Shown here one piece after another: positions 14,328-56,377 of a DNA stretch of 64,000 nt (position 1 is the stretch's first letter; each line of letters opens with the position of its first letter). The translations under genes were made by a program, and so were the position numbers. Origin of the DNA: Hyphococcus sp. (GTDB taxonomy: Bacteria; Pseudomonadota; Alphaproteobacteria; Caulobacterales; Parvularculaceae); contig JAJFFY010000007.1 of NCBI GenBank assembly GCA_021776415.1, positions 124,001-188,000 on the forward strand, read 5' to 3'. The notes under the pieces are model-generated. The model had not been told where the DNA came from. It made no database searches and saw nothing but the letters and a program-made list of their open reading frames with translations.

Positions 14328-14458
14328 GGGCCCCCTCCGTCACCTTCGGTGACACCTCCCCCGTTATCACGGGGGAGGAATTAGGTTGCGCTTGAGGTAG
14401 AGCTCTTTCTTCCCCCGTTTACGGGGGAAGTGGCCGCGAAGCGGTCGAAGGGGGCCTC
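14328..14458. repeat. Dispersed palindromic intergenic repeat (GGCCCCCTC type), copy 1
   Basis: The outer ends (GGGCCCCCTCCG ... CGAAGGGGGCC) are complementary. Inside are several short hairpins: CACCTTCGGTG, CTCCCCCGTTATCACGGGGGAG, TTCCCCCGTTTACGGGGGAA and GACCGCTTCGCGGCC-like. The same architecture recurs at 25088. It abuts the stop codon of the ArsC-like gene and may act as that gene's 3' end structure. Such CCCCCTC/GGGGGAG repeats are common in alphaproteobacterial intergenic regions. Confidence 0.8.
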
Positions 14459-23962: not shown

Positions 23963-24122
23963 GTCATCCCGTACACGATGCAGCATCCGCGCGCGAAGGC
24001 GCGCAATTTATTAAACGACCGCCTTTGCGGTCGGGATGCCGCTTCGCAGATACGGGATCTCCTGAAGCAGATCCCGGACCAGCATCGCGTCATCAAAGAT
24101 GCCGCAATGCATCCGGGATGAC
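23963..24122. repeat. GTCATCCCG/CGGGATGAC repeat carrying the nested double-hairpin module
   Basis: The terminal inverted bases (GTCATCCCG at 23963-23971, CGGGATGAC at 24114-24122) mark a dispersed alphaproteobacterial repeat type. Inside, at about 23984-24038, is a ~50-bp module. It has one hairpin (CGCGCGAAGGCGCGC), an AT-rich spacer and a second hairpin (GACCGCCTTTGCGGTC), bounded by CATCC and GGATG. The same module occurs inside different elements at about 42675 and 51943. The gap between the serine hydrolase and HMG-CoA lyase genes holds nothing else. Confidence 0.75.
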
Positions 24123-25087: not shown

Positions 25088-25207
25088 AGCCCCCTCCGAT
25101 CGCTGCGCGATCACCTCCCCCGCAAGCGGGGAAGGAATAAAATAGCACCGCGGTAAACTTGCTCCCCCGTTTACGGGGGAGCTGTCGGCGAAGCCGACTG
25201 AGGGGGC
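25088..25207. repeat. Dispersed palindromic intergenic repeat (GGCCCCCTC type), copy 2
   Basis: This has the same architecture as the copy at 14328: outer AGCCCCCTCCG ... TGAGGGGGC, with inner hairpins GATCGCTGCGCGATC, CCCCGCAAGCGGGG, CTCCCCCGTTTACGGGGGAG and GTCGGCGAAGCCGAC. It sits in the short gap between mccA and mvaB inside the presumed operon, so it would be part of the polycistronic RNA. Confidence 0.8.
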
Positions 25208-41849: not shown

Positions 41850-42083
41850 CTATCCGGCAAAGAAAAGGACGATGGCCCGCGTAAGCATTGTTACTATAAG
41901 GGTTACGATTATATCGCGTCCAATCGTCCACCCCACAAAAGCGCCAAGACCTGCTGTTATCGTGCTGATGATCCAGAAAAAAGCCAGATTGAAAATGCCC
42001 AACTGCACCCATATGTAGATGGAAATACCGAAGGAGATAAAGGCTGCAAGTAAAATATGAACAAGAAAACTGTTGTTTTTCAT
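41850..42083 (-). CDS. Small membrane protein, 77 residues
   Basis: The protein has 77 residues from the ATG at 42083. Two or three membrane helices (about 8-30, 33-55 and 58-75) include the lines FGISIYIWVQLGIFNLAFFWII and GLGAFVGWTIGRDIIVTLIV. No family was recognised. It ends nine bases before the BASS transporter start and might be co-transcribed. Confidence 0.5.
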   Translation of the reverse strand: MKNNSFLVHILLAAFISFGISIYIWVQLGIFNLAFFWIISTITAGLGAFVGWTIGRDIIVTLIVTMLTRAIVLFFAG

Positions 42084-42104
42084 CAATCAAAACCCGATGC
42101 GCAT

Positions 42105-42590
42105 TTAGTAAAATCCCCAGATAAACAAACGGGCGACAATCAGCGAAATCGCCAGCCCCGCCCACAGGGTGAGACGGATGCGCAGTTGTGCGTACCAGCG
42201 TGGCAAAACCCCGGCGGAGGCGGCCTGAAGATCGCGCATCAGGAGATAGATCAGCAACGCGAGGATAATAAGATGTCGCCATGCCGCATCGAGCGAGAAG
42301 AAGAAAACCCCGCTTGGAATAACCGCGAGAAAAGCGACTAAGGTGATGAGCTGTCCGGGCAGGAAGGATTCATATTGCTTCACCGCCGGAGACAGCGTGA
42401 TGCCCGCGCCCGCGCCGGCGAGATAGGCAACCATAACGCCGCCATAGATCAGCGCGAACTGATGAAAATCCAGCGCGAAATATTGCGGCAATGGCCACGG
42501 GCTCATCCACAAGGCGACGGCGGCGACAATGAACGGCAAAAGCGATAATAGCCCAAGCCGCGTCATCTGTTCTTGTTGCCGGTTGGCCAT
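42105..42590 (-). CDS. DUF3429-family membrane protein
   Basis: The protein has 161 residues with five hydrophobic segments. The line LLPFIVAAVALWMSPWPLPQYFALDFHQFALIYGGVMVAYLAGA is the recognisable DUF3429 N-terminal part (AxFxxFLxGxxW-like). The function is unknown. Members are short inner-membrane proteins of Proteobacteria, often near respiratory or membrane genes. It lies upstream of the 77-residue protein and BASS transporter on the same strand. Confidence 0.75.
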   Translation of the reverse strand: MANRQQEQMTRLGLLSLLPFIVAAVALWMSPWPLPQYFALDFHQFALIYGGVMVAYLAGAGAGITLSPAVKQYESFLPGQLITLVAFLAVIPSGVFFFSLDAAWRHLIILALLIYLLMRDLQAASAGVLPRWYAQLRIRLTLWAGLAISLIVARLFIWGFY

Positions 42591-42610
42591 ATTACCCCTC
42601 CGGCCTCAGC

Positions 42611-42757
42611 CTATAGCAAAATGCGTTCAATATGAATACGTGCATTTTGCTATAGTTTTTGTAGCCGCATCCGCCCGCGCGCGAAGGCGCGCTAATCATA
42701 AATTGACCGCCTTTGCGGTCGACGCGAAAACCGCCGCACACTTTTCGCTCGATGCTT
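42611..42757. repeat. Composite dispersed element, copy 1 (with nested module)
   Basis: A perfect 14-bp inverted repeat (CTATAGCAAAATGC at 42611-42624, complement at 42642-42655) is followed by TTTTTGTAG. Then comes the double-hairpin module (about 42675-42723; CGCGCGAAGGCGCGC, GACCGCCTTTGCGGTC). It ends in GAAAACCGCCGCACACTTTTCGC. The plan matches the copies at 44552 and 51881 although the inverted-repeat sequence differs. It lies between the DUF3429 gene and the TIGR02186 gene. Confidence 0.7.
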
Positions 42758-42766
42758 TGACCATAT

Positions 42767-43549
42767 TTATGATTTGCGAAACGCAAGCGCTGCAATCCAG
42801 CCTGCAAAAAGCGATATGACGACGCAGAGGATGCCGTAAGTCACCGGCTGGTCGTGGGCGAGGTCGAAAATACGCCGCTCAATGCCGACTTTGTTGACCA
42901 CCAGCTCAGCCTCGTCGCGCCCCAGCAATATGCCGTCCTGATAGAGATACACCACAACGCTGTAATCGCCGACCGGCGTATTGGCGGGCAGATCGACATT
43001 GATGGTAAACAGGGCGCCTTTTTTGAATTCAACGCCGCCGACCCGGTCGCGATAAAGGCCGGTATCTTCGGCTTCGCTGACAAAGGCTTTGGCGAACAAT
43101 TCGGCATGGGCGTCGGTTTGCGCCTCATCCGCCGCCTCTACATCATCCTGCGCCGCATTTATTGTCAGAAAATCCGCACCAAGATGATAGGCGGCCTGGT
43201 CCGGCAGGGGGGCGATGTCGGTGATCGGCCGGTTGGCGTTGGTCAGGTATAGCCCGGGCGCATCCTTGATTGCATGGGTGTTGCCGGGCATCCATATAGG
43301 GCCTCTTTTTTCCAGTTGGCGAATTTGAAATTGCGTTGCCGGCCCGCGGATGACTGAAATAATATCAACGCCGGCGCCATCGTCAGCGCTGGGCGTCTCA
43401 ACGCCGCTAATGGCGCCGAACAGCGTCAGCCGGGCGCCGGAAAATCCGGTATCGACCTCAACACGGTCATCGGTCAGGGCAATGGAAAGATCGGCGGCCT
43501 GCGCCGGCGCGAGCATGAACCAGACCCATAAGATGGCGATCAAACGCAT
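42767..43549 (-). CDS. TIGR02186-family protein
   Basis: The protein has 260 residues from the ATG at 43549; a longer frame through the transporter gene is an artefact of open reading. A signal peptide (LIAILWVWFMLAPAQA) is followed by a periplasmic beta domain (about 20-220), with the lines IALTDDRVEVDTGFSGARLTLFG and VSVYLYQDGILL-type. A C-terminal membrane helix (about 235-255) completes it. Proteins of this family almost always accompany a TauE/SafE permease in Alphaproteobacteria. The first ATG shares one base with the permease stop (TGATG). An accessory periplasmic role for the permease is likely. Confidence 0.85.
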   Translation of the reverse strand: MRLIAILWVWFMLAPAQAADLSIALTDDRVEVDTGFSGARLTLFGAISGVETPSADDGAGVDIISVIRGPATQFQIRQLEKRGPIWMPGNTHAIKDAPGLYLTNANRPITDIAPLPDQAAYHLGADFLTINAAQDDVEAADEAQTDAHAELFAKAFVSEAEDTGLYRDRVGGVEFKKGALFTINVDLPANTPVGDYSVVVYLYQDGILLGRDEAELVVNKVGIERRIFDLAHDQPVTYGILCVVISLFAGWIAALAFRKS

Positions 43550-44463
43550 CAAGGCGCCCCCACAACAATGAAGGGCGAGGCCGGCGGCGTCACCAGACCA
43601 AACAGCAGCCGGGCGCAAACGCCGAGCACGATCAACGCCAGCAGCGCACGCAACTGCTCGCCTTTTAGTCGTCGTCCCGCCCGCGCGCCGATCTGTGCGC
43701 CGATCACGCCGCCGGTCAGCAGCAATAGTGCAAGCACAATATCGACAGTCTGGTTTGCCGCCGCATGCAGGACCGTTGCAATCGCGGTGACGAATATGAT
43801 CTGAAACAGCGACGTGCCGATCACAACATTTGTCGGCATCTTTAAAATGTAGAGCATCGCCGGCACCATGATGAAGCCGCCGCCGACGCCCATGATTGCC
43901 GAAAGCACGCCGACCAGAAAGCCAAGTATGATCGGCGGGATCGGGCTGATATAAATTTGCGAGCGGCGAAACCGCATCGCGAACGGCATCACCGCCATCC
44001 ACTCGACGCTGCGATGTTTGCGACGCGGGCGCGGCGCATCGGGCGAGCGCAACAAGGCGCGCACAGATTCCACCATCATCAGAGCGCCAATAAGCCCGAG
44101 GAAAATAATATAGGCGAGCGAGATAAAGGTCTCGATCTGGCCCATGGCGCGGAAATACCGGAATATAAAAATGCCGACAACCGCGCCGACGCTGCCGCCG
44201 GCGACTAAAAATCCGCCCATCATAAAATCGACGGTCTGTCGCTTTAAATGCGCCAGGACGCCGGAAACCGATGAGGCGACGATTTGCGAGGCCTCGGTGC
44301 CGACCGCGACCGCCGGGGGGATGCCGTAGAAGATTAATAGCGGGGTCATCAAAAAGCCGCCGCCGACGCCGAACATGCCGGAGAGAAACCCGACCACCGC
44401 GCCCATAAAAATTACGACGAACGGATCGACCGGAATCTCCGCAATGGGGAGATAAATGAGCAT
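43549..44463 (-). CDS. TauE/SafE-family sulfite or organic-anion permease
   Basis: The protein has 304 residues with eight or so helices and two internal repeats. The signatures FLSGMFGVGGGFLMTPLLIFYGIP and LVGVLSAIMGVGGGFIMVPAMLYILKMP are the two 'GxGGGx' halves of the TauE/SafE family. The family exports or imports sulfite, sulfoacetate and other organic anions. It is translationally coupled to the TIGR02186 protein downstream. The exact anion is unknown. Confidence 0.9.
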   Translation of the reverse strand: MLIYLPIAEIPVDPFVVIFMGAVVGFLSGMFGVGGGFLMTPLLIFYGIPPAVAVGTEASQIVASSVSGVLAHLKRQTVDFMMGGFLVAGGSVGAVVGIFIFRYFRAMGQIETFISLAYIIFLGLIGALMMVESVRALLRSPDAPRPRRKHRSVEWMAVMPFAMRFRRSQIYISPIPPIILGFLVGVLSAIMGVGGGFIMVPAMLYILKMPTNVVIGTSLFQIIFVTAIATVLHAAANQTVDIVLALLLLTGGVIGAQIGARAGRRLKGEQLRALLALIVLGVCARLLFGLVTPPASPFIVVGAP

Positions 44464-44551
44464 GGCGCCTGCGTCGCAATACGTGCCGAAAAGAAGTGAA
44501 CCTTAAGGGCTCGCTTATAGAGGCGCCGGGTCGCTCGCGGCAAGCGCCAGC

Positions 44552-44656
44552 CTAGAACATCGGCCGATTAAGAAGAATCGCCCGATGTTCTAGATTCTTT
44601 GTAGTACGCCGGGGTTTTCGAAAAACCGGTTTCCACTTTTTCGCCCGGCGTTCTAG
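44552..44656. repeat. Composite dispersed element, copy 2 (no insert)
   Basis: An 18-bp inverted repeat with a single mismatch (CTAGAACATCGGCCGATT at 44552-44569, its partner at 44576-44593, six-base loop) is followed by ATTCTTTGTAGTACGCCGG. It ends in GGTTTCCACTTTTTCGCCC then GGCGTTCTAG at 44656. The last CTAG supplies the TAG stop of podJ on the minus strand (44653-44655). No nested module is present, so this is the uninterrupted form. Confidence 0.8.
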
Positions 44657-47613
44657 CCAGCTGGCGCGATCTCGTTTGCTTCCGCATCGGGTGTGCGCGC
44701 TTGCCACTCGGCGATGGTTTTGTCGAGCTCTGCTTTTTGTGCCGTGGTGAGTGCGTTGGCGACGCTTGCGGCGAGCGGCTGGGCTTGCTCATCGCCATTG
44801 CTGGCGGCGAGCGAGTACCAGTAATAGGCTTTGCCAGCGTCCTGAACGCCGGACGGCGTTCCATCGCCGGTGGGGTGGAAAATCGCGCCGAGATTATATT
44901 GCGAATCCACCAGTCCGCGATTGGCGGCAAGTTCAAACCAGCCGATGGCTTCGCCGGCGTCAGCCGGTCCGCCTTCACCGCGCGCGGTCATGATGCCGAT
45001 ACGGTGCATGGCGAGCACATTGCCGCCATTGGCGGCGCGCCGGAACCAGGTGCGGGCGCGGCCGAGGTCGACATCGACGCCCTGGCCGGTTTTGAAAAAT
45101 TCGCCAAGCTGCAATTGCGCCGGCGGATGGCCGAGCGCGGAGGCCTCGCGCAGCTTGGTGATTGCGGCGGTGGATTCTGCATCCGTTTCGGCCGCCCCAA
45201 GCCCGGCCATGGCGTCGCTATAGAGGGCGCGTGGGTCAATCGTCGGTGCGTTCGGCACATCAAGCGTATTGTCGGCGGCGGGCGGCGCATCGCCAGTCGA
45301 CGGACCCGCGACAAGTCCGCCGCGGTCAACCGCGTCGGGGGATTTGAACACAATATCTTTGACCATAAAGAACAGCACGGCCAGCGAGAGGAAAATGCCG
45401 ACGATCAGCGCCAGCGTCAGCGGCCGCGCCGATGCGGTTGCTTTCAAGGTTTCAAACGCCGCCCGGTCCCCATTGCGCAAGCGCGCCTCTTCGGCTTCCG
45501 GCGCTTCCGGTGCAGGGGCGGCGGTCTGTTCGGTTTTGCTCTTGGCGCCGATAAAGGGCAGCTTGCTGCGAAGCGCGGCAAAGGCGCCGGCTGCCCCGGA
45601 TGGGCGGTCATTTTCCTCAGCATAATCATTTTGCGGCTCTGCGGCGGCTTCCTGCAGTGCTTCTTTTGCGGCCGCGGCTTTGATAGTATCGACCGGCACA
45701 TCGATCTCGCCGCGCGCTTCGGCGAGGCGTTTTTTCCGCGCTCGTGCAACGAGGATAGCTTTTTGCTTCGGCGTTAGCTTTCGGCGGCGGGGTTTTTTAT
45801 CTTCTTCCGCGCGCGCGGCCGCGTCTTTTACTTGCCGGCGCGCCGCCTGGAGATAGTCATCCGGCTTTTCTTTCGGCTCACCGGCTTCAGTATTTTCTTC
45901 GCCGAAGAGCAACGACATAGCTTGTTGTCTCGCACGGTCCTCGGCTTCTTGGTCGGTATCAGTATCAGTCTGTGGGGTTTCAAGCTTGGGCGCATCAAGA
46001 TCAGATGCATCAAGATTGGGCGCATCAAGATCAGACGCAAGGTCCGGTTGAACGTCGCCGGTCATGTCGTCGAGGTCGGAGAGGATCTGGTCGAGGTCGT
46101 CGCGCGGCTCGGGTTCGATCTCGGTATTGTCGGCGGCGGAAGCTGCTGGGCCGCCTTGCGGGTTCATGCCGAACACATCGTGGACTTCTGATAACAGGGC
46201 TTGCGCTTCTGCGTCTGCATTATTTTCGACGGCGCTGCGCGGTTCGTCGTCCAGCTCAAAAGAAAAGTCGTCCTTGGCGTCGTCGCCGGCGGAGACTTCG
46301 TCGAGCGCGGCGTCGATTTCGTCAGCGAAGGAGAACGGGTCTTCATCTCCTTCTGCGGCGTTATCTTCAACCGCTTCAACCGCCGTTTTCGGGTCGGTGC
46401 TGGGCGCTTCATCGCTTACGGGTTCGTCCCCGCTTACGGTTCCGTCGTCTTTATCGGCGTCATCCTTGTCGCCAAAGCCGAGGGCGGCGGCGAGGGATGA
46501 GAAGGCGGACTTTCCTGTAGCGTCTTCGTCTTTTGCTTCGTCTTTTGCATCGTCGCTTGGTTCCGCGTCCTGCGCCGCGGCGTCTGGTTCTGCGGGAGCC
46601 GATTCAGGAGAGGGCGCAGCCAGCGCCTCGCCGGAGGTCTCCATGCGCTTGGTGAGAGATTCAAAAGAGCTTTGCAGTTTTTCAAAGCGTGCGTCGGCCT
46701 CCCGGGTCACCGCGGCAACGGCGGCGTCAATGTCTTTCCGGCTGGCGCCGTCGGATGTTTCCTTGCTGGAAGTCCCTTGCAAATCTGCAAGCGTTTCCAT
46801 GACCTTCTGGAGGCCTTCCGCGTTGCGCCGTTCTGCCGCGTCGATTTGGCCGGATAATTTTCCGATGGTGGTTTCAAATGTGCGAATCTGGTCGCCGCTG
46901 CGTTTGATTTCATCGCCAAGCACGCGCAGCCGGTTGCCGGTGCTTTCGACAAAGGCCGGGTCAGCCCCGCCGCTGGCGCCTTGTTTTTGTGCGGCGGCAT
47001 CGCCGGCGAGTTTTTCAGTGCGGGTGAGACGCGCGGTCAGACCGTCAATTGCGTCTTTGACAAATCCGAGATCGGAGGCCCCGCCGCCATCGCCGCCGCC
47101 GTCAACGCGTTCGGCAAATTCCTGCAATTGGCGTTCTGTTGCGTCGAGGCGTTCAATCGTCATCTTTTGCGCGGTGTTAAATTGTACCGCGACTTGTGTG
47201 ACTGCTTTTTCAAGCGCTTTGAGCGCGTTGATGCGCTCAATATCGTTGCCGTCGGCTTCGAGTTTTTCGATCCTTGCGCCAAGGCCGCTGTCGCCGCCTG
47301 CGGGCTTGACCCTTTCCAGGCGCTGCACCCGTTCAACCACATCGCCAATCTTGCGGGTGACCTCGCTGACATTCTCGGCGCCGGCGGTGTGGGTCTGCGC
47401 AACTTGTTTGTGCAGATGTTCAATCGCGGTGATGATGTCGCGCAGCTTCAGCCCCTCGACCTCGCCGCCGGAAGATTGCGGCTCGCCAGCGGTGTAGATC
47501 ATCTGGTTGAGCCACTCGCCAACGGTCAGGCCTTTGCGCTTGGCGGCTTCTTTTGCCGTTTCACGAGCATCGCGTTCGATGCCTTTGACGCTCCAGGGCG
47601 CATTCGACTTCAT
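44653..47613 (-). CDS. podJ: PodJ-like polar localization factor
   Basis: The protein has 986 residues from the ATG at 47613; an upstream in-frame start adds ten. The N-terminal signature (SNAPWSVKGIERDARETAK, then GLTVGEWLNQMIY) is PodJ. Coiled-coil segments (about 60-330) and a long acidic, low-complexity region (about 350-590) are followed by a basic linker. A single membrane helix (about 730-750; LALIVGIFLSLAVLFFMV) leads to a periplasmic part with three or four Sel1-type repeats (about 800-950). PodJ localises polar factors (pili, holdfast, PleC) in Caulobacter and is cleaved periplasmically. No peptidoglycan-binding domain is seen. The stop codon is provided by the CTAG end of a repeat element. 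A CtrA box lies about 170 bases upstream. Confidence 0.88.
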   Translation of the reverse strand: MKSNAPWSVKGIERDARETAKEAAKRKGLTVGEWLNQMIYTAGEPQSSGGEVEGLKLRDIITAIEHLHKQVAQTHTAGAENVSEVTRKIGDVVERVQRLERVKPAGGDSGLGARIEKLEADGNDIERINALKALEKAVTQVAVQFNTAQKMTIERLDATERQLQEFAERVDGGGDGGGASDLGFVKDAIDGLTARLTRTEKLAGDAAAQKQGASGGADPAFVESTGNRLRVLGDEIKRSGDQIRTFETTIGKLSGQIDAAERRNAEGLQKVMETLADLQGTSSKETSDGASRKDIDAAVAAVTREADARFEKLQSSFESLTKRMETSGEALAAPSPESAPAEPDAAAQDAEPSDDAKDEAKDEDATGKSAFSSLAAALGFGDKDDADKDDGTVSGDEPVSDEAPSTDPKTAVEAVEDNAAEGDEDPFSFADEIDAALDEVSAGDDAKDDFSFELDDEPRSAVENNADAEAQALLSEVHDVFGMNPQGGPAASAADNTEIEPEPRDDLDQILSDLDDMTGDVQPDLASDLDAPNLDASDLDAPKLETPQTDTDTDQEAEDRARQQAMSLLFGEENTEAGEPKEKPDDYLQAARRQVKDAAARAEEDKKPRRRKLTPKQKAILVARARKKRLAEARGEIDVPVDTIKAAAAKEALQEAAAEPQNDYAEENDRPSGAAGAFAALRSKLPFIGAKSKTEQTAAPAPEAPEAEEARLRNGDRAAFETLKATASARPLTLALIVGIFLSLAVLFFMVKDIVFKSPDAVDRGGLVAGPSTGDAPPAADNTLDVPNAPTIDPRALYSDAMAGLGAAETDAESTAAITKLREASALGHPPAQLQLGEFFKTGQGVDVDLGRARTWFRRAANGGNVLAMHRIGIMTARGEGGPADAGEAIGWFELAANRGLVDSQYNLGAIFHPTGDGTPSGVQDAGKAYYWYSLAASNGDEQAQPLAASVANALTTAQKAELDKTIAEWQARTPDAEANEIAPAG

Positions 47614-48070
47614 CTTAAGGTACCCGCCTTTTGTGAGGGCCAATTCCCCCGAAATAGTGTAGTCGCGGCGTTATCAACACCGGGACCTAACATTAAGCTG
47701 TTAAGGCGCTTCGCATTGCTGGCAAAGCCTTACTGCCGCCACGGCGCTCCGAACAGCTTGCCGACATCACAATTGCCGACAATTAACGAAACCTTAACGG
47801 CGATTCGGGGCCGGGCGGGTTCATTTCAGGGCTGTTGGGGAGAAATATTGCCCGGTTTAGTGCATTCGGCGACGCCGCCCGCCGTTACCGCCGCGATGAA
47901 CGAGAAATTACAGCGCATGCGATGGCGCGTTTCGCCTGTAGCGGTTATGAATTCTGGAAAATGTTAGGATGCCGTTTCTAAACTTGCTATTTAGGAGTTA
48001 CGTCCTGATTTCAGGCCGCTAAGGCCATTTCGACAATTAATATTGCGACGATCAAGAACCGAGGAACGCC
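47614..48070. other. podJ upstream region (457 bases)
   Basis: There is no gene here. The minus-strand podJ promoter should lie in the left half and the plus-strand acyl-CoA dehydrogenase promoter in the right half. A perfect CtrA-type box is present (listed separately). A closely spaced TTAA pair, TTAAGCTGTTAA, also occurs at about 47694-47705. Confidence 0.6.
47783..47798. promoter_or_regulatory. CtrA-type binding site upstream of podJ
   Basis: The bases TTAACGAAACCTTAAC fit the CtrA consensus TTAA-N7-TTAAC exactly, with both half-sites perfect. It lies about 170-185 bases upstream of the podJ ATG (minus strand) and about 275 bases upstream of the divergent acyl-CoA dehydrogenase. It is strong evidence for CtrA control of one or both genes, in a cell-cycle type regulatory network. 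Confidence 0.65.
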
Positions 48071-49855
48071 ATGACCGAATACGCCGCCCCGCTCAAAGAC
48101 ATGCAGTTTGTTCTGAACGATGTTTTGGAGATTTCGAAATATTCAAATTTGCCAGGTTTTTCAGAGATTTCCGACGATCTTGTTGAGGCGATCCTTGAAG
48201 AGGGCGGCAAGCTGGCGGCGAATGTTCTCCACCCCATTAATCAGTCCGGCGACAAGGAAGGCTGCATCCGCCATGACGACGCTTCGGTGACCACGCCGAA
48301 GGGCTTTAAAGAGGCCTACGAGGCCTACAAAGAAGGCGGCTGGCAGGGGCTGGCCTTCGATCCTGTATATGGCGGGCAGGGGTTGCCTTATATTATTGGC
48401 GTTGCTGTCGGCGAAATGGTCTCTGCGGCGAATATGGCGTTCGGGATGTATCCCGGTCTGGCGCGCGGCGCCGCCGAAGCCATCTACGCCCATGGCACAG
48501 ATGAGCAGAAACAAAAATATCTGCCGAGCATGATGTCCTGCGAGTGGGGAGGGACCATGAACCTCACCGAGCCCCATTGCGGCACCGATCTCGGGCTGTT
48601 GCGCACCAAGGCGGTCCCGCAAGAGGGCGGCGCTTATAAAATTTCCGGGTCCAAGATTTTCATCTCCGCCGGCGAGCAAGACCTCACCAATAACATTATT
48701 CATCTGGTGCTGGCGCGGATTGAAGGCGCGCCGGACGGGGTGAAGGGGATTTCGTTGTTTATCGTGCCGAAATTCCACATCAATGATGATGGCTCGCTGG
48801 GCGATCGCAACGGCGTTGCTTGCGGCTCGATTGAAGAAAAGATGGGCATCCACGCCAACTCCACCTGCACGATGAATTTTGACGATGCGACCGGCTATCT
48901 TCTCGGCGAGGAGAACAAGGGCCTCAAAGCCATGTTCACGATGATGAACGAGGCGCGGCTCGGCGTTGGCATGCAGGGCATGGCGATTTCGGAGGTCTCC
49001 TATCAGAACGGCGCGGCCTACGCCAAGGACCGGCTGCAAGGCCGGGCGCTGACCGGGCCGGCCGAGCCTGACAAGCCCGCCGATCCGATCATTGTTCATC
49101 CCGATGTACGGCGTATGCTGATGGATCAGCGCGCCTTCACCGAGGGCGCGCGCGCCTGGATGTACTGGACGGCGCTGCATGGCGATCTGCACAAAAAATC
49201 TGAAGACGAGGCGACGCGCCAAAAGGCTGACGATTTTATGGGCCTGATGACGCCGATCTTGAAATCTTACCTCACCGATAAAGGCTATGCACACGCCACC
49301 AATGCTCAGCAGGTGCTTGGCGGTCATGGCTATATTGCCGAATGGGGCATGGAGCAGTTTGTCCGCGATGCGCGCATCGCCATGATCTATGAAGGCGCCA
49401 ACGGCATTCAGGCGCTCGACCTTGTCGGTCGTAAGCTGATGAAAGACGGCGGCCGCGCCTGGCAGTCTTATTTCGCTGAGATCGATGAGTTCATCGGCGA
49501 TAATCAGGGCAATGAAGAACTTAAACCTTTCCTTGACGGCCTGGCGACAACCAAAGCCCAAACGTTGGAAGCGACCCAGTGGATGGGCGCTAATGCGATG
49601 CAGGATTTCAACAATGCCGGCGCCGCGTCGATGGATTACCTCAACCTCTTTGCGCTCACCTGCCTGGCCTTCGCCTGGGCGCAAATGGCCAAAGCGGCGA
49701 TCGAGAAACAATCTGCGGATGATGATTTTTACAAAAACAAACTCATCACCGGGCGCTATTTTGTCGAGCGGATGCTGCCGGACGCTGGCGCGCATCTTGA
49801 AAAAATCAAGGCTGGCGGGGCGGCGACCATGGCGCTTCCGGCGGAAGCGTTTTAG
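48071..49855 (+). CDS. Long-form acyl-CoA dehydrogenase
   Basis: The protein has 594 residues, larger than IVD because of a C-terminal extension (about 460-594), as in DmdC and other acyl-CoA dehydrogenases of this clade. Core lines: FDPVYGGQGLPYIIG, GTMNLTEPHCGTDLGLLRTKA, SAGEQDLTNNIIHLVLARIEG and QVLGGHGYIAEWGMEQFVRDARIAMIYEGANGIQALDLVGRKL, the last being the flavin and tetramer region. The substrate may be an acyl-CoA (fatty acids) or 3-methylmercaptopropionyl-CoA. Nothing next to it settles which. It is followed by an intrinsic terminator, so it is probably monocistronic. Confidence 0.9.
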   Translation: MTEYAAPLKDMQFVLNDVLEISKYSNLPGFSEISDDLVEAILEEGGKLAANVLHPINQSGDKEGCIRHDDASVTTPKGFKEAYEAYKEGGWQGLAFDPVYGGQGLPYIIGVAVGEMVSAANMAFGMYPGLARGAAEAIYAHGTDEQKQKYLPSMMSCEWGGTMNLTEPHCGTDLGLLRTKAVPQEGGAYKISGSKIFISAGEQDLTNNIIHLVLARIEGAPDGVKGISLFIVPKFHINDDGSLGDRNGVACGSIEEKMGIHANSTCTMNFDDATGYLLGEENKGLKAMFTMMNEARLGVGMQGMAISEVSYQNGAAYAKDRLQGRALTGPAEPDKPADPIIVHPDVRRMLMDQRAFTEGARAWMYWTALHGDLHKKSEDEATRQKADDFMGLMTPILKSYLTDKGYAHATNAQQVLGGHGYIAEWGMEQFVRDARIAMIYEGANGIQALDLVGRKLMKDGGRAWQSYFAEIDEFIGDNQGNEELKPFLDGLATTKAQTLEATQWMGANAMQDFNNAGAASMDYLNLFALTCLAFAWAQMAKAAIEKQSADDDFYKNKLITGRYFVERMLPDAGAHLEKIKAGGAATMALPAEAF

Positions 49856-49883
49856 GCCTTCGGGCGTAATCATAAAGACTATT

Positions 49884-49914
49884 AAGGCGGCGCAGCAATG
49901 CGCCGCCTTTTTTC
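49884..49914 (+). terminator. Rho-independent terminator after the acyl-CoA dehydrogenase
   Basis: A GC-rich stem (AAGGCGGCGCA, short GCAA-type loop, TGCGCCGCCTT) is followed by a T6 tract and lies 29 bases after the stop codon at 49855. Confidence 0.9.
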
Positions 49915-50011
49915 TTATCGACAAACTGTTTGTTCTGGCTGCGCGAGCGGGCTAGGGTCTGATACCAAGCAGCTAGCTAAATAAAACAAAATTCAAATCA
50001 GGGGTATTTCA

Positions 50012-51868
50012 ATGCGAAATTTATTCTTGGCGCTGATGGGCGCTACCACGCTAACTGCTTGCGGACAGCAAGCATCTACGCCAACAGAACCAGCGCAGAT
50101 TGCGGAGCCAAGCGCTGAGGCGATCACAGCGGAAACGGCCCGGCTTAATGAATGGTTTGCCGCGCGGTGGGAGGAAGAGCTTGATTTTTCGCCGGTCACC
50201 AAAACGTTTCTGGGCCGCAAGGACGACAATGACAAAATCGACGACTTGTCAGAGGCTGCTGAGGACGTACAGCTCGCCTGGCGCCGCGAAAATGGTCGGG
50301 CGCTGAAAGAAAGCTTTGACTACGCGCTGCTTACGCCTGAGGCGAAAACTTCCTACGATATTTGGCTTTATCAATTGGCGCAGACTGAGGCGTCCTACCC
50401 GTTTCGCCGGCGCGGTTATGTCTTCCACCAGATGCGTGGCGTGCATTCTTTCTTGCCAAACTTCCTGATCAACTTTCACAAAGTTGAGACCGCCGACGAT
50501 ATGCGCGCTTATATTACACGTATCAGCGGCGCCGCCCGGGCGTTGGGCCAGGCGCTAGAACGTGCGAAGCTGGCGGCGGCGGAGGGCGTGCATGCGCCAG
50601 ATTTTGCTTATGACGGTGTCTTGAAGCAATCGCGTGCGCTGATTGCCGGCGCCCCGTTTGAGGGTGAGGGGGAGGCGCCGCTCTGGGCGGACGCAAACTC
50701 CAAGATTGATGCGCTGATTGAATCCGGCGCCGTCAATGAAGAAGAGGCAAGCGACTTGCGCGCGGCGGCGCGCACCGCGCTGATCGATGCGTTTAAACCT
50801 GCCTACGATGCGCTGATCGCCTGGGTTGAAGACGAAAAGCCGAATGCACCGGAGACATCTACGGGCGTCGGTTCGCTTCCTGACGGCGAGGCCTATTACA
50901 CCGAGCGCCTGGCCTTTGCGACAACGACGGATATGACGCCGGATGAGGTGCATGCGCTCGGGCTTGCAGAGGTTGCGCGGATCAAGGGCGATATGGAGAC
51001 GCTCAAAACCACGGTCGGCTTTGACGGGACGCTTGATGAATTCTTCAGCTTCGTTCGTGAAGACGAGCAGTTTTACTACCCAAATACCGATGAAGGGCGA
51101 GACGCCTATCTGCAATCGGCGCGTGACCATCTTGCTTTTATCAATGAGCGGCTGCCCGAAAAATTCGGCCTGTTGCCGAAAGCGGATCTAATTGTGAAAC
51201 GCGTCGAAGCGTTTCGCGAACGTGACGGCGGCGCTCAGCATTATTTCCCCGGGACGCCGGATGGCTCGCGGCCCGGTACTTTTTATGCGCATCTTTCCGA
51301 CATGAGCGCGATGCCGATCCCGCAGCTTGAGGTTATCGCCTATCATGAGGGCAACCCTGGCCACCACATGCAAAATTCGATTGCACAGGAAGTCGAAGGC
51401 CTGCCGGAATTTCGCAACCAGGCGGGCTTTACCGCCTATGGCGAAGGCTGGGCGCTTTATTCAGAAATACTTGCCAAGGAGATGGGCGCCTATGACGATC
51501 CTTATTCCGACTTTGGTCGCATGACGACGGAAATCTGGCGAGCGATCCGACTTGTTGTGGACACCGGGCTGCACGCCAAAGGCTGGACGCAAGAACAGGC
51601 GGTGGAATATTTCATCTCGAATTCTCCGGCCGCCGAAGGCCAGATCCGCTCCGAAGTGCGGCGCTATATAGTGATGCCCGGCCAGGCGACGTCTTACAAA
51701 ATTGGCATGCTGAAAATTCTTGAGCTGCGCGAGAAAGCCAAGACCGCGCTCGGTGATGAATTTGATATTCGCGGCTTCCACGACACAGTGCTCGGCGGCG
51801 GCGCCTTGCCGTTGTCGGTATTGGAGCGACGTGTCGATGAGTGGATCGCGGTGCAACAAGCGTCCTGA
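50012..51868 (+). CDS. DUF885 metallopeptidase-like lipoprotein
   Basis: The protein has 618 residues. The lipoprotein signal is MRNLFLALMGATTLTACGQ, with the lipidated Cys at 17. The metal motif HEGNPGHH (YHEGNPGHHMQNS, about residue 450) is the zinc signature of DUF885, a thermolysin-like family of secreted peptidases or esterases. The final region (PGQATSYKIGMLKILELREKAK) is typical. The substrate is unknown. It is followed, 12 bases after its stop, by a composite repeat element. Confidence 0.88.
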   Translation: MRNLFLALMGATTLTACGQQASTPTEPAQIAEPSAEAITAETARLNEWFAARWEEELDFSPVTKTFLGRKDDNDKIDDLSEAAEDVQLAWRRENGRALKESFDYALLTPEAKTSYDIWLYQLAQTEASYPFRRRGYVFHQMRGVHSFLPNFLINFHKVETADDMRAYITRISGAARALGQALERAKLAAAEGVHAPDFAYDGVLKQSRALIAGAPFEGEGEAPLWADANSKIDALIESGAVNEEEASDLRAAARTALIDAFKPAYDALIAWVEDEKPNAPETSTGVGSLPDGEAYYTERLAFATTTDMTPDEVHALGLAEVARIKGDMETLKTTVGFDGTLDEFFSFVREDEQFYYPNTDEGRDAYLQSARDHLAFINERLPEKFGLLPKADLIVKRVEAFRERDGGAQHYFPGTPDGSRPGTFYAHLSDMSAMPIPQLEVIAYHEGNPGHHMQNSIAQEVEGLPEFRNQAGFTAYGEGWALYSEILAKEMGAYDDPYSDFGRMTTEIWRAIRLVVDTGLHAKGWTQEQAVEYFISNSPAAEGQIRSEVRRYIVMPGQATSYKIGMLKILELREKAKTALGDEFDIRGFHDTVLGGGALPLSVLERRVDEWIAVQQAS

Positions 51869-51880
51869 CGCTGGGCCTGT

Positions 51881-52031
51881 CTAGAGCGTTGGGCGATTAA
51901 TAGGAATCGCCCAACGCTCTAGATTCTTTGTTGTGCGCCGGCCTGCTCGCAAAGGCGCGCTGATAATAATCAGACCGCTTTCGCGGTCGGGTACGAAAAA
52001 TCGGTTTCCACTTTTCCGCCCGGCGCTCTAG
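51881..52031. repeat. Composite dispersed element, copy 3 (with nested module)
   Basis: A perfect 18-bp inverted repeat (CTAGAGCGTTGGGCGATT at 51881-51898, its partner at 51905-51922) is followed by ATTCTTTGTTGTGCGCCGG. The double-hairpin module is inserted next (about 51943-51992), then CGAAAAATCGGTTTCCACTT to the terminal GCGCTCTAG at 52031. Apart from the insert, its right end aligns with copy 2. The terminal CTAG supplies the TAG stop of the acyltransferase gene on the minus strand (52028-52030). Confidence 0.8.
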
Positions 52032-52480
52032 TCGGTAGGAGTGATAGTTTTTGCCGGCACGCCGACAGCGGTGCAGTTTGCAGGCACATCTTTTAAGACG
52101 ACGGCGTTGGCGCCAATGCGAGCACCTTTGCCAACCTGAATTCGTCCGAGCACTTTAGCGCCCGCACCGATATAGACACCGCGTTTGATATTTGCCGCAC
52201 CATCCCCCGTCTGACCGATAGTGACCTGCTGCATAATCAGGCAATCATCTTCGATGATTGCCTCTTGGTGAATGACAATTCCATTTAGATGAGGCATTCT
52301 TACGCTGACTGCAATCACAGCGTCACGATGGATATCGGATGCTGTCAATGTGCTCCACATAATATGCTGAACTTTGTGGTAGTGGTTGCGCAACTTATTG
52401 AAAACACCAGAGTGATTTTTAGTTTTGCGATACGCGGCGAGGTTCCTCAATAGTTTCGCATCGGCATTTCTCCAAAACAT
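52028..52480 (-). CDS. Hexapeptide-repeat acyltransferase, serine-acetyltransferase-like
   Basis: The protein has 150 residues. The left-handed beta helix of the hexapeptide transferase superfamily is visible (IGQTGDGAANIKRGVYIGAGAKVLGRIQVGKGARIGANAVVL, then a V-P-A turn). Related serine acetyltransferases carry the same HLNGIVIHQEA- and GQTGD-type lines. It is shorter than CysE (about 270), and the N-terminal domain of CysE is missing. A serine or sugar O-acetyltransferase is possible. Its TAG stop is the CTAG end of a repeat element. It precedes the VirK-like gene on the same strand by about 20 bases. Confidence 0.8.
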   Translation of the reverse strand: MFWRNADAKLLRNLAAYRKTKNHSGVFNKLRNHYHKVQHIMWSTLTASDIHRDAVIAVSVRMPHLNGIVIHQEAIIEDDCLIMQQVTIGQTGDGAANIKRGVYIGAGAKVLGRIQVGKGARIGANAVVLKDVPANCTAVGVPAKTITPTD

Positions 52481-52501
52481 TATTTTTTTGTTCCTTACGC
52501 G

Positions 52502-53422
52502 TCATGTGTCAGCAAACCAGACCGGTGTCAGGGCTGGTAAATCATCTTGCAGGCGTTCGCCAATGGCGTCCAGAAACTCATACCTTTTGCGATACATTGA
52601 GCGTTTTTTCGGTTTGATGTCGGCAAGGTCGCGGCGGCTTATTTCCCGACTCAGCTCAAAAGTCTGTTGGTCCACGATTACGCCGCCGCGGTCCAGCCAG
52701 ATTTCATCGTAATTGGTCGAAAAATCTGTCTTGTTCTTGAAATAGGCGTGGCGATGATGCCGGTAGGCGTCCGCAACGGCGAGAATGCGCTCAACGCCGG
52801 CAGCCTGGCAGACCATGCGAAAAATTTCGATCAGGAAGTCCCGCGGGCGAATACCAAAGAGTTTTTTTGTCAGATCGCGGTAAGTCGCTAAAATATCCTC
52901 TCGGTTGCGCCCTTGTATGGCGCCAATATAGGCGGTTATGGCGCCGTCTTCTTCCTTGAAGAACGAAAATGCGAGTGAGAACGCTCGAAAATCGTTGATG
53001 AATATATTCACAACCAGCATGCCTTCGCGCATGAACCATTTGGGCTGGTCAAGAACAACTTTGAAGCCGGGCAAAATGTCTTCGAGATCGAGCAGGATTA
53101 GGCGTTTGTCGGCGCTGAAGGTAAAGGGTGCGCCCAGCGCGTCGATAATTTTTGTATGGTCAATAATTCGCGCCCAGCGCTCGCGCGGTGTCCATGCGGC
53201 GTTTTGATATGGCCAAATGAATGCGCCGAACATTTCCGGGCGTTCGGTTAGCAGCGTTGATAGGCTTGAGCGTGTATCAGCTTGCCGAATTTCCGCAACA
53301 ATTTCGGGTGCGTTCCATGCAGAGAGGAATAGTCGCAGGCGTGTTTTCCATCCCGCAATGCTATTTTCACCAGCGGCCCCTTGTGACGCTGACCACAGCC
53401 ATTTGGTCGTTTCAATATTCAT
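52502..53422 (-). CDS. VirK/YbjX-family protein (DUF535)
   Basis: The protein has 306 residues. Recognisable lines are ITAYIGAIQGRNREDILATYRDLTKKLFGIRPRDFLIEIFRMVCQAAGVERI and, near the end, RSMYRKRYEFLDAI, as in VirK/YbjX. The family has unknown function, although Salmonella VirK and E. coli YbjX are linked to lipid A/outer membrane changes. It sits with the acyltransferase, and the pair lies 150 bases from vsr and dcm. The region is otherwise not connected to metabolic genes, and a small accessory island is possible. Confidence 0.82.
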   Translation of the reverse strand: MNIETTKWLWSASQGAAGENSIAGWKTRLRLFLSAWNAPEIVAEIRQADTRSSLSTLLTERPEMFGAFIWPYQNAAWTPRERWARIIDHTKIIDALGAPFTFSADKRLILLDLEDILPGFKVVLDQPKWFMREGMLVVNIFINDFRAFSLAFSFFKEEDGAITAYIGAIQGRNREDILATYRDLTKKLFGIRPRDFLIEIFRMVCQAAGVERILAVADAYRHHRHAYFKNKTDFSTNYDEIWLDRGGVIVDQQTFELSREISRRDLADIKPKKRSMYRKRYEFLDAIGERLQDDLPALTPVWFADT

Positions 53423-53526
53423 AGCATGGTCCTAGCGGCCGGGCAGAAGTCGGACTAGTGTGCAGCGCGCATATTATTGGCGCAGTTGTCAATAATTGAT
53501 GCATATTTGAGCTGAAAACGCTTTCA

Positions 53527-53940
53527 TCATCGTTTGATCGGGATGTTAGCAGGATTGAGTTTTTTAAGCTCGCATTCCCAGACGGTAATGACGCGCCAGC
53601 CGAGTTTTTTGAGCGCGGCTGTATTCTTCTTGTCGCGCGCCTTGTTGCGGGCGATTTTCTCCGTCCAGTAGGCGGTGTTGGTTTTAGGAACGCGCTTGCC
53701 CCGCTTGCAACTGTGACCATGCCAGAAGCATCCGTGGACGAATATAACAGCGCGGTGTTTTGGAAAGACCAGGTCCGGTTTTCCGGGCAGGGTTTTGACA
53801 TTGAGCCGGTAGCGATAGCCGAGCGCGTGCAGCGCCTTCCTGACGGCGATTTCGGGTTTTGTGTCCGTGGACTTCACCGCCCGCATCACCGCCGAGCGCT
53901 TTTCAGGAGAAAAAACGTCGGTGCGGGGCTTGGCGGTCAC
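53527..53940 (-). CDS. vsr: Very short patch repair endonuclease
   Basis: The protein has 137 residues from a GTG at 53940. The MRAVKSTDTKPEIAVRKALHALGYRYRLN line and FVHGCFWHGHSCKRG match the Vsr signature (nicking of T:G mismatches arising from deaminated 5-methylcytosine). The metal site includes the Asp in KPDLVF. The Cys/His cluster binds a structural zinc. It overlaps the end of the dcm gene (GTGA), so it is translationally coupled to the cytosine methylase, as in E. coli dcm-vsr. Confidence 0.95.
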   Translation of the reverse strand: MTAKPRTDVFSPEKRSAVMRAVKSTDTKPEIAVRKALHALGYRYRLNVKTLPGKPDLVFPKHRAVIFVHGCFWHGHSCKRGKRVPKTNTAYWTEKIARNKARDKKNTAALKKLGWRVITVWECELKKLNPANIPIKR

Positions 53941-55070
53941 GCGGCCTTGATTGCGCGTATGAGCAATGCAGGCTCGAAGATATTCTCACCCAGCCATTGC
54001 ACCAGCGGCGCGCACACTCCGTCGCCGCACAGTTTGAGCGCTGCGGTTGTGCTTTCCGGGAGGATATAATCTTCCCGCAGCCCCATCAGTCGCGCCGCCT
54101 CTCGCGGGCTCATCAACCGGGTGCGGACTTTGCCGCCCTCAATCGCAATAACGATCTGGCGTGAGGAGCCGCCTGCCGGCGTGCGCAAGCATCCAGCGAG
54201 GCCGTCAAACCGCGCCTCAAAACGCTGAACGCTGTTGCCGTTCTCTGCGCGCGTGCGACGGAAACCGGCGCCGGCGCGGCGGGCGCCGTTTCGCATGATT
54301 GCCTCAATGCGTGCGCGTTGCGATGCGCTCATCATGTCGACAAGGGCTTTGGTTTGCTCTGGCGGATGCCAATCCGCGGCGTTCCAGTCGATGATATCGC
54401 CAAGGCGGATGTTTCTACGCGGCCCCGGCTGCGGCGCGAGCCACAGCCATTGCGCCCGCGCCTCTGGCGGCAAATGATCGAGGGCTGAGATCAACGCCGG
54501 CGGCGCCAATTTTTCTGACGTTGGTGTTTTGGCAGTGGCCGGTGCGGCCGCGGGCCCGAAGCCGAGGATAAACAGGCGCGGCCGCGATTGCGGCGTGAAG
54601 GCGCGCGCATCGAGAACTATCGCGGTGACCCTATAATCGAGCGCCGCCAGACACTCGACCACGACGGCAAAGTCGCGACCGCCATTCGACGTCATCAGCC
54701 CGGCGACATTTTCAAGGGCGACAATGTGGGGCGCCCGCCCGGCTGTGTGGAGTTGTTCAACCAGACGCCGGAAGCCGAAAAATGCGCCGCTGCGTTTTGC
54801 ATGAATGCCGCCGCGCGCGCCGGCCAGCGACAGATCCTGGCACGGGAAAGAGCCCCATATCAGATCAGCGCGCTCGCCCGGCAGGTCGTTGAGGTTGAGA
54901 GCGGCGATATCGGCTTCGATCAGGTCATTGTCGCCGAAATTGGCGCGATAGGCGGCGCATTTTTGCGGGTCGAAATCATTGGCCAGCAAACACCGCCACG
55001 AATCACCAAGGCCCAAACGGGCCATACCGCCGCCGGCAAAGAATTCGAGGAATGAAAACTGCTGCATCAT
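53937..55070 (-). CDS. DNA cytosine-5 methyltransferase
   Basis: The protein has 377 residues. Motif I (FLEFFAGGGMARLGL, AdoMet), motif IV (GSFPCQDLSLAG, catalytic Cys), motif VI (ALENVAGLM), motif VIII (QSRPRLFILGF) and motif X (GDGVCAPLVQWLGENIF) are all visible. The target-recognition region is between VIII and X, about residues 190-310. Its target is unknown. No restriction enzyme gene is adjacent, and the partner is Vsr, so it is an orphan-type methylase. Motif I is of the EFFAGGG form found in many Alphaproteobacteria. Confidence 0.93.
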   Translation of the reverse strand: MMQQFSFLEFFAGGGMARLGLGDSWRCLLANDFDPQKCAAYRANFGDNDLIEADIAALNLNDLPGERADLIWGSFPCQDLSLAGARGGIHAKRSGAFFGFRRLVEQLHTAGRAPHIVALENVAGLMTSNGGRDFAVVVECLAALDYRVTAIVLDARAFTPQSRPRLFILGFGPAAAPATAKTPTSEKLAPPALISALDHLPPEARAQWLWLAPQPGPRRNIRLGDIIDWNAADWHPPEQTKALVDMMSASQRARIEAIMRNGARRAGAGFRRTRAENGNSVQRFEARFDGLAGCLRTPAGGSSRQIVIAIEGGKVRTRLMSPREAARLMGLREDYILPESTTAALKLCGDGVCAPLVQWLGENIFEPALLIRAIKAA

Positions 55071-55285: not shown

Positions 55286-56377
55286 ATGCCCTTGATGGAT
55301 ATCAAACAAGTAGGCTGCGTGGCAGCGTCAATGTTGGCTTTCGCCATTTTGGCTGGGCCGGCGCAGGCGGCGGGCAGTCAGACGCAAGGCGCTGACATAA
55401 TTAAGCCGTTTCAAATAGCGGTGAATGAACAACGCGAGCCGCGGAAAGCCGATCACCAAGGTTACCGTGGCGAGGACCGTAGTGGCGGCGACCGCGCAAG
55501 GCGTAATAAAGACGCAAAGCGCAAGGCTCAAAAACAAGAGTCTCGTCGCTCATCGGAACAACGGAGCAGTCGCCAGCGCAACGCTGCACGCACGCAGGAA
55601 ACCCGTGATAGCCGCCGCGCCAACCATCGCAGCGACCGTCGCAGCGATACTCGCCGCAGCGACACTCGGCGCAGTGATCGCCGCAGTGACACCCAACGCA
55701 GCAACAATCATCGCAGCGATCGCCGTAGCGATACTCGCCGCAGCAACAACCATCGCAGTGATCGCCGCAGGGACACCCAACGCAGCAACAATCATCGCAG
55801 CGACCGTCGTAGCGATACTCGCCGCAGCAATAATCATCGCAGTGATCGCCGCAGTGATCGCCGCAGCAACAATCATCGCAGTGATCGCCGCAGGGATACT
55901 CACCGCAGCAACAATCACCGCAGCAACAATCATCGCAGCGACCGCCGCCGCGACACCCACCGCAGCAACAACCATCGCAGCGATCGCCGCCGCGACCACC
56001 GCCGCGCCGATCGGCGCAGCTCCCACCGTCGCTCCGATCACCGCCGGAGCCATTACGGCAGCGGCCACTACAGCCATCCGGCGGCATACTCCGGGCGTCA
56101 CTACCGGCACGGTTACGGGCCGAGCCGCGGGCACGGGTATTACTGCTCGTTTCATAACCTGTTTCACTATAATTCCGGCTATGATCCGCTCGGCTGGCTG
56201 TTTGTGAGCTTTGGCTATGACCGCTATTCGTCGCGTTATCTCGACGACTGCGATGTGGTCTCGCAAACCTTCTATCGCCGTGGTCGACGCTATGAGGAAG
56301 TTGCGCTGCTTTGCTACGACTCATATGGCTACGGCTATATCAAGCGTGGCAGCCGCCAGGTCTATCGCACCTACTAA
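55286..56377 (+). CDS. Secreted Arg/Ser/Asp/His repeat protein
   Basis: The protein has 363 residues from the ATG at 55286, with AAGGAGAAGCGA just before it. Longer frames start in non-coding sequence. A signal peptide ([17 protein letters not shown]) is followed by a highly basic segment and then about 140 residues of degenerate repeats of the type '[14 protein letters not shown]'. After this come a His/Gly/Tyr-rich part and a C-terminal domain of about 90 residues with two Cys ([30 protein letters not shown]). The repeats may bind anionic polymers or metals. I do not recognise a family. It is followed by a terminator. It is divergent from the dcm gene. Confidence 0.7.
55620..56040 (+). repeat. 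Short tandem coding repeats (CGCAGC/AACAATCATCGC type)
   Basis: A degenerate array of 12-to-30-base units (CGCAGCAACAATCATCGCAG, GATCGCCGCAG and similar) encodes the Arg/Ser/Asp/Asn/His region of the secreted protein. Base composition is unusually purine-poor in stops, so long unrelated frames open on both strands across this stretch. Such an array is expected to be length-variable between strains. Confidence 0.8.

Follow-up and report, generated by a model that had tools for sequence, protein, structure and literature searches.

The region analysed here, a 64,000-nucleotide stretch of a Hyphococcus sp. contig (the window), contains a repeated element whose terminal CTAG coincides with the stop codons of two unrelated genes, and the question raised is whether the element remade the ends of these proteins or entered stops that were already present. 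Copy A extends from CTAG to CTAG over 44552-44656. The element proper (44555-44653, plus strand) lies between two TA dinucleotides, one at its left edge (44553-44554), taken as a duplicate on the basis of empty sites at other copies, and one at its right edge (44654-44655), which with the complement of C44653 forms the stop of a podJ-like gene (44653-47643, minus strand, 996 aa, C-terminus EIAPAG). This TAG, read on the minus strand from 44655 to 44653, lies within the right-hand CTAG that ends at 44656. The name podJ is that of the original prediction; a Pfam search of the gene product returned Sel1 repeats only. Copy B spans 51881-52031 from CTAG to CTAG, with the element proper at 51884-52028 (plus strand), a GC-rich nested insert at about 51943-51989, and TA duplicates at 51882-51883 and 52029-52030. 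The right-hand duplicate and the complement of C52028 form the TAG (52030-52028, minus strand, within the right-hand CTAG) of a hexapeptide acyltransferase (52028-52480, minus strand, 150 aa, PF00132), which scored too low in codon usage to enter the statistical counts but is supported as a gene by its Pfam domain. The minus-strand open reading frames thus confirmed that the terminal CTAG supplies both stops, and copies A and B were observed in the same orientation relative to the genes they close, as originally predicted. A DUF885 gene (50012-51868, plus strand) converges on copy B, with its own TGA ending 12 bases before the element CTAG. A third copy, degenerate and of the sister type described below (about 42611-42761, plus strand, boundaries drawn by eye), carries the same GC-rich nested insert and was not at a stop codon, the adjacent gene stopping a few bases outside.

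The element is short (about 100 bp, rising to about 145 bp where the nested insert is present), lacks coding capacity, and consists of two hairpins with inverted GAGC-like ends. In copy A these parts are a 5' hairpin (44552-44593 including the CTAG ends), a ATTCTTTG linker and a 3' arm ending in GGCGTTC; its closest other copies are 92 and 87% identical. The left end was CTAG in most copies and the right end mainly CTAR, unlike the GTAG that tags one end of GTAG REPs. We distinguished two types, a primary family to which copies A and B belong, and sister elements.

Exact coincidence of element ends with stops was general in this genome, as the genome-wide listing suggested by the original prediction brought out: 21 of 50 copies examined had an end exactly on a gene stop. 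These 50 were drawn from 99 listed matches, some of them opposite-strand matches of the hairpin to itself; eight truncated or degenerate copies from among 30 weaker ones were omitted (C80:99363, C22:10838, C13:82308, C83:9, C8:11749, C63:1487, C49:4363, C13:45481), and ten further weaker matches lay outside the set. Counting as coding only those open reading frames with a codon-usage score above 20, 28 ends were reached by a coding frame, of which 22 stopped exactly at the edge and 6 ran deeper, against one third exact expected by frame (p = 1.2e-6). In five other genomes (G016, G009, G004, G021, G022), sampled as 60 of the best listed among 212 matches, 14 ends were exact and 2 deeper, or 11 and 1 with G009 left out. 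The coincidence occurred at both element ends, not at the right end alone; A-type right ends numbered only four, too few to judge the influence of the last base. The right-end motif (at most 3 mismatches) occurred twice in the window and never in 100 shuffles, and chance was rejected on the basis of these shuffles and the 22 of 28 exact ends. Copies in this genome were also at stops more often than non-coding CTAR sites of the window (21/50 versus 7/44, Fisher 0.005), while the same comparison for the other genomes (13/60, Fisher 0.32) showed no excess. CTAG itself is rare in the window, with 33 sites against 79 expected.

Insertion sites were examined for target duplication. Both ends carried TA in 35 of the 50 copies of this genome and in 34 of 60 elsewhere; some ends, those of sister and other-genome copies, had been shifted by as much as 1-2 nt onto the closest TAG or CTA, which favours TA. 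The left TA was preceded by C in 38 of 42 copies and the right TA was followed by a purine in 35 of 39. Among the 46 alignments to empty sites with an identity of 18/30 or better, the far flank resumed at the native TA, with an offset of 0 in 22, +1 in 9 and other values in 15. The 2-bp TA target duplication of an IS630-type MITE was therefore found; TA was favoured over CTAG or CTA as the duplicated sequence, since in cases 1 and 10 the far TA is preceded by A and the near one by C. At one stop the site was empty in G019 (CGC-TAA-GCCGGCTTTGCAAG) and filled by a primary-type element in G026 (CGC-TAG...CTC-TAA-GCCGGCTTTGCAAG), and in the present genome the same stop was occupied by a sister element in the opposite orientation. 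Case 22 (atpF, identified by eye) was empty in G006 (AATTAATGGCGCC) and filled here (AACTAG...CTCTAATGGCGCC). In cases 8 and 9, one copy parts two genes that share a single convergent CTAA in G006, and after insertion both genes keep their end residue, each with its own TAG.

If insertion had truncated or extended unrelated genes, with the element CTAG making new stops and remodelling both C-termini as first proposed, relatives lacking the element should end elsewhere, and the comparison with orthologues went against this. For the podJ-like protein, the closest three relatives, with identities of 94, 93 and 89% across the C-terminal 263 aa, lack the element and share the end EIAPAG with a TAG stop, and two more distant ones (G011 and G010, 71% identical) also end in PAG, with TAA. 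Among the closest three, the G006 locus has no repeat after the stop and is not a clean empty site, carrying 15 nt more there, and in G026 and G009 a different GC-rich repeat directly follows. Overall, 58 of 74 comparisons with element-free relatives (24 cases) ended at the same residue by their own TAA, TAG or TGA. Acyltransferase homologues, only 43-45% identical, ended 0, 0 and 2 residues away (stops TAA, TAA and TGA), which is consistent, though weakly, with a pre-existing stop. The 74 pairs include these three homologues and a second G009 locus (case 14), and leave out cases 11, 17, 19, 28, 29 and 30; two rows of case 24 were removed since G009 and G019 carry the element there (76 to 74 pairs, 60 to 58 agreements). 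Case 2 had G006 as its sole comparison, and the protein tails in cases 6 and 26 are of low complexity; there, other alignment settings changed the lengths in case 6 and gave no match in case 26. Among the excluded cases, 17 and 19 kept the same end residue in 4/4 and 3/3 relatives, and in case 29 three relatives differed by 1-2 residues, and in one of the three the frame seems to run on into a different element.

Some C-terminal changes, few in number and limited to 1-9 residues, are real and favour remodelling at those sites: case 3 was 2-9 residues shorter than in all four relatives, case 27 one residue shorter than in all three, case 11 (outside the 74) one residue shorter than in 4/4, and in case 28 (C13:12923), where the terminal TAG has decayed, the frame continues into the element and the protein exceeds that of 4/4 relatives by 7 residues. 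The frequent TAA or TGA in relatives where carriers have TAG points the same way. Set against the exactness of 22 of 28 meetings and the agreement to the residue in most comparisons, remodelling is very improbable as a general account; it appears largely refuted by orthologue ends, being rejected for the podJ-like gene and unlikely for the acyltransferase. What stood of the original interpretation is that the G of the stop comes from the element, in many cases at stops that are TAA in relatives, and that the coincidence extends across the genome. We consider it unlikely, if less so, that the hairpins of the element, acting as 3' UTR structures or terminators, account for its retention at gene ends, with stop overlap a by-product of selection for closeness. 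The 5' stem covaries (10 of 32 pairs changed on both sides) and 27 other gene ends lay outside but within 300 nt of the 50 copies, yet closeness alone would leave the exact register, with a TA at each edge, unexplained, and no T run follows the 5' hairpin. A known RNA family was also rejected, as an Rfam search of 42000-54000 returned no family at gathering score and four sub-threshold matches only. Least credible was a REP of the GTAG type with a RAYT (Y1) transposase as its mover. The termini of such REPs are reported often to supply TAG stops to flanking ORFs (PMC3733652), and one PF01797 match was observed in this genome (E 2.6e-6). However, they are 20-40 bp long, carry GTAG at one end and are linked to RAYTs, and the section on termini in that source describes neither target duplication nor a pre-existing stop; the present element has CTAG, duplicates TA, measures about 100 bp and combines two hairpins with inverted GAGC-like ends. 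PF01797 was detected in 6 genomes out of 30, G004 with its 16 element matches not being among them, a weak point since PF13358 has the same gap.

We therefore return to insertion into existing stops and hold, with good confidence, that a non-autonomous element resembling the IS630 (Tc1/mariner) type uses stop codons as harmless landing sites. The element would insert at the TA of CTAR sites and duplicate it. If the target dinucleotide belongs to a TAA or TAG stop, its near copy and the terminal G of the element would re-form TAG, whichever end and orientation are involved; the native stop, in many cases TAA, would be pushed to the far end and survive there. Stops would act as harmless landing sites because such insertions leave the protein unchanged and are tolerated, whereas those at CTAR sites within genes would be lost. 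The comparisons show stops that are older than the element, as well as exact coincidence with stops, TA at the two ends, empty and filled sites, and different elements in one and the same stop codon. We infer mobilisation by an IS630-type transposase and, as the filter for surviving insertions, selection; the positive selection for stop creation originally suggested is not needed to explain the pattern. It is possible, though doubtful, that the family is adapted to stops, with the inward terminal G maintained at both ends because, whichever way the element lies, TA+G gives back a stop, and that TAA and TAG stops, especially shared convergent CTAR stops, form a dedicated safe harbour entered independently by different elements. 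Insertion into existing stops gives a simple testable rule, that TA-inserting elements can accumulate in compact bacterial genomes within stops rebuilt on landing, and would explain repeat ends that coincide with gene ends yet bring no new protein ends. For annotation, a gene that ends on a stop derived from an element is not necessarily truncated, and the empty and filled sites form a set usable for studying insertion, TAA to TAG stop switching and the separation of overlapping convergent genes.

Candidate transposases were searched for in this and related genomes. Three of six IS630-family (PF13358) loci examined in related genomes, one from the genus and two from the order, had TA|GAGC ends in CTAG. 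In 400 end-to-end comparisons between element and IS630 ends, 6 matched at least 15 of 20 positions (0.33 expected from shuffles), representing five distinct sister-element ends with a best of up to 16/20; the primary family, including the window copies, shared only the first few bases. IS427-group genes (PF13340) were found in 9 of 30 genomes, and 6 of 14 loci examined had TA-flanked inverted repeats; these also lie at TA, mostly in CTAG, but have ends unlike GAGC, and the group was rejected as mover. No PF13358 gene was found in the present assembly (85% complete), and because of this we describe the element as most likely an IS630-mobilised miniature element in its manner of working, not a proven member. 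Our confidence is not higher because PF13358 was also not found in G004, and because the primary-family ends match poorly; the PF13358 copy in G009 is broken.

Precedents exist for stops supplied by GTAG REPs and for IS630 and IS870 at CTAG. Tenzen and Ohtsubo are said to have described in 1991 a preference of IS630 for the TA in CTAG, and Fournier et al. reportedly found in 1993 that IS870 depends on a CTAG target for the creation of a stop codon. IS870, an IS5-family element of Agrobacterium, differs in that the target completes its own ORF, whereas the element here restores the stop of a host gene. IS630 and ISY100, of the Tc1/mariner family, target and duplicate TA (PMC2170065), but are autonomous and encode a transposase, while the element encodes none. 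A likeness in form is seen in RUP, the repeat unit of pneumococcus, which is 107 bp, non-coding and present in many copies, with a TA target and IS630-like ends, and is proposed to be mobilised by IS630-Spn1 (PMC2229807); its sequence and host differ, and the portion of that source drawn on here does not describe stop restoration. Rhizobial intergenic palindromes (RIME and similar) may also be comparable: a sister copy partially matched 39 plasmid records, 25 of them from Sinorhizobium, mostly at 80-90% identity over 40-50 bp among the matches listed, with 0 of the 39 covering 80% of the query.

The window contained two intact palindromic copies of the element, at 44552-44656 and 51881-52031, each consisting of a 42-bp 5' hairpin with CTAG ends, followed by the linker ATTCTTTG and then a 3' arm with terminal GGCGYTCTAG. 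Exactly as originally noted, the right-hand CTAG contained the TAG stop of a minus-strand ORF in both instances, the podJ-like ORF (44653-47643) at the first copy and the acyltransferase ORF (52028-52480) at the second. The second copy also carried a GC-rich double-hairpin unit of ~47 nt (CGCGCGAAGGCGCGC..GACCGC..GCGGTCG) at 51943-51989, observed again at 23987-24033 and 42675-42721. This unit was found alone and also nested at one constant position in 7 of 28 copies of the primary family (the subfamily of the two intact copies), one of which carried it twice; similar units adjoin the podJ-like stop in the related genomes G009 and G026. CTAG was rare in the whole window (33 sites versus 79 expected from shuffles), with six of the 33 being part of the intact elements. 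Other repeats included a 42-nt-period array within an ORF (55569-56042) and a dispersed 45-nt pair, 82% alike (14411-14455 and 25163-25207; CCCCCGTTTACGGGGG...), by eye unlike the element.

A DNA search of the source assembly (3.31 Mb, 85% complete) returned 52 element matches; with a covariance model derived from 20 copies the number rose to 99, opposite-strand self-matches counted in. The 5' hairpin covaried, 13 of 20 sequences differing on both sides at one pair. Matches at E <= 0.001 were observed in 23 of 40 genomes searched, 20 of them from the same genus, including the Hyphococcus genome itself. An exact-pattern search of named genomes gave 10 stretches, all from two MAGs named Marinicaulis, which the taxonomy look-up placed in Hyphococcus, Parvularculaceae. 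Weaker matches represented sister subfamilies with different arms, a common layout and ends mostly TAGAGC.

The coincidence with stops was found across the genome and at both element ends. Codon usage in 20 long ORFs of the window provided the table for scoring ORFs near 28 primary and 22 sister copies; a score >20 counted as coding, and an ORF was called exact if it ended at the terminal stop, formed by TA and the first base of the element. Coding ORFs entered the element at 28 ends, of which 22, in 21 of the 50 copies, were exact and 6 deeper (p = 1.2e-6, frame chance 1/3); at 27 more ends the gene terminated outside the element, <=300 nt away. Sixty copies from five other genomes, among the best listed of 212 matches, gave 14 exact ends, in 13 copies, against 2 deeper (p = 1.2e-5, frame chance 1/3), or 11 and 1 (p = 4.7e-5, same frame chance) when we left out G009, a near relative that may have common insertions by descent. 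The result held at score cut-offs of 30 and 50.

Comparison of filled and empty sites showed how a stop is both entered and restored. The empty site in G019 reads CGC-TAA-GCCGGC and is filled in G026 as CGC-TAG-element-CTC-TAA-GCCGGC, while the Hyphococcus genome carries a different sister element there in opposite orientation, with far end CTAG-CCCGGC. In carriers, the flank past the element resumes at the TA of the native stop. Insertion duplicates TA, the near copy forming a TAG stop with the element's terminal G and the former stop remaining at the far end. The duplicated unit is TA rather than CTA, since A precedes the far TA in cases 1 and 10 (cases being gene ends that meet an element copy). 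At C18:9573 an element parts two convergent genes that have CTAA in common in G006, with end residues unchanged. The stop of case 23 is occupied in G009 by another subfamily, to whose far end a further element is attached; the two elements of this tandem (L214) belong to different subfamilies, and the second begins within the first one's far CTAG, as though a filled site were itself a target.

Orthologous gene ends for 24 cases were sought in near relatives, then fetched and aligned. Element-free relatives ended at the same residue in 58 of 74 comparisons (76 first counted, minus two misclassified rows of case 24, G009 and G019, which both carry the element); stops in the 76 were 36 TAA, 29 TAG and 11 TGA. 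These alignments show the stops to be older than the insertions. The suggestion that insertion remodelled the podJ-like C-terminus was contradicted, as G026, G009 and G006, lacking this element, share the last residue and close on TAG (another GC-rich repeat follows directly in G026 and G009, none in G006), and in G011 and G010 the protein terminates at the same position on TAA. For the acyltransferase the comparison was less decisive, its homologues, at only 43-45% identity, ending 0, 0 and 2 residues away. Exceptions were case 3 (four relatives longer by 2-9 residues), case 27 (three longer by 1), cases 9 and 10 (three each shorter by 3, G006 identical) and cases 6, 12 and 13 (one relative each). 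Remodelling nevertheless takes place in a minority of cases, since at C13:12923, where the terminal TAG is mutated (CCAG), the gene reads into the element and gains 7 residues relative to 4/4 relatives. Left ends were decayed there (L044) and at C41:167587 (L132), the gene entering 14-26 nt to give short element-coded C-terminal tails.

The target sequence is C-TA-R: in 38 of 42 copies a C precedes the left TA, and in 35 of 39 a purine follows the right one. Among 119 window CTAR/YTAG sites outside elements, 75 lay in called genes and 7 were stop codons, the other 37 being non-coding; stops would represent 16% of remaining sites if gene-interior insertions are lost. Stops held 21 of 50 copies in the Hyphococcus genome, above this 16% (Fisher test, 0.005, which allows for the small background), and 13 of 60 in the other genomes, not significantly above it (0.32). 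Target choice and loss of damaging insertions would account for most of the pattern, and an extra attraction to stops may contribute.

A study of IS630 reportedly describes a CTAG preference, and IS870 is said to require CTAG to make its own stop, whereas the element restores the stop of the host gene. In the literature searched, which covered few subscription papers, we found no description of a repeat that inserts at TA, enters the stop codons of host genes and rebuilds them. The TA target is common to ISY100 and IS630, which duplicate it (PMC2170065), to the IS630-linked repeat RUP (PMC2229807) and to the element; GTAG REP termini, like the element's ends, supply TAG stops to flanking ORFs, and do so frequently (PMC3733652); and a Coxiella MITE lengthens a gene by 33 residues (PMC5896051).

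IS630-family genes (PF13358) were observed in 4 of 30 genomes, and PF13358 was not found in the Hyphococcus assembly (85% complete) or G004. IS427-group elements, also considered, likewise lie at TA, mostly in CTAG, yet their ends are unlike the element's. Ends beginning TA|GAGC, in CTAG, were present at 3 of 6 IS630 loci examined, and many element ends begin alike. Some sister elements have up to 16 of their first 20 bases in common with the G009 IS630 copy; in the primary family the likeness ends after the first few. The TA|GAGC ends and the sister-element likeness therefore lead us to infer mobilisation by a putative IS630-type transposase.
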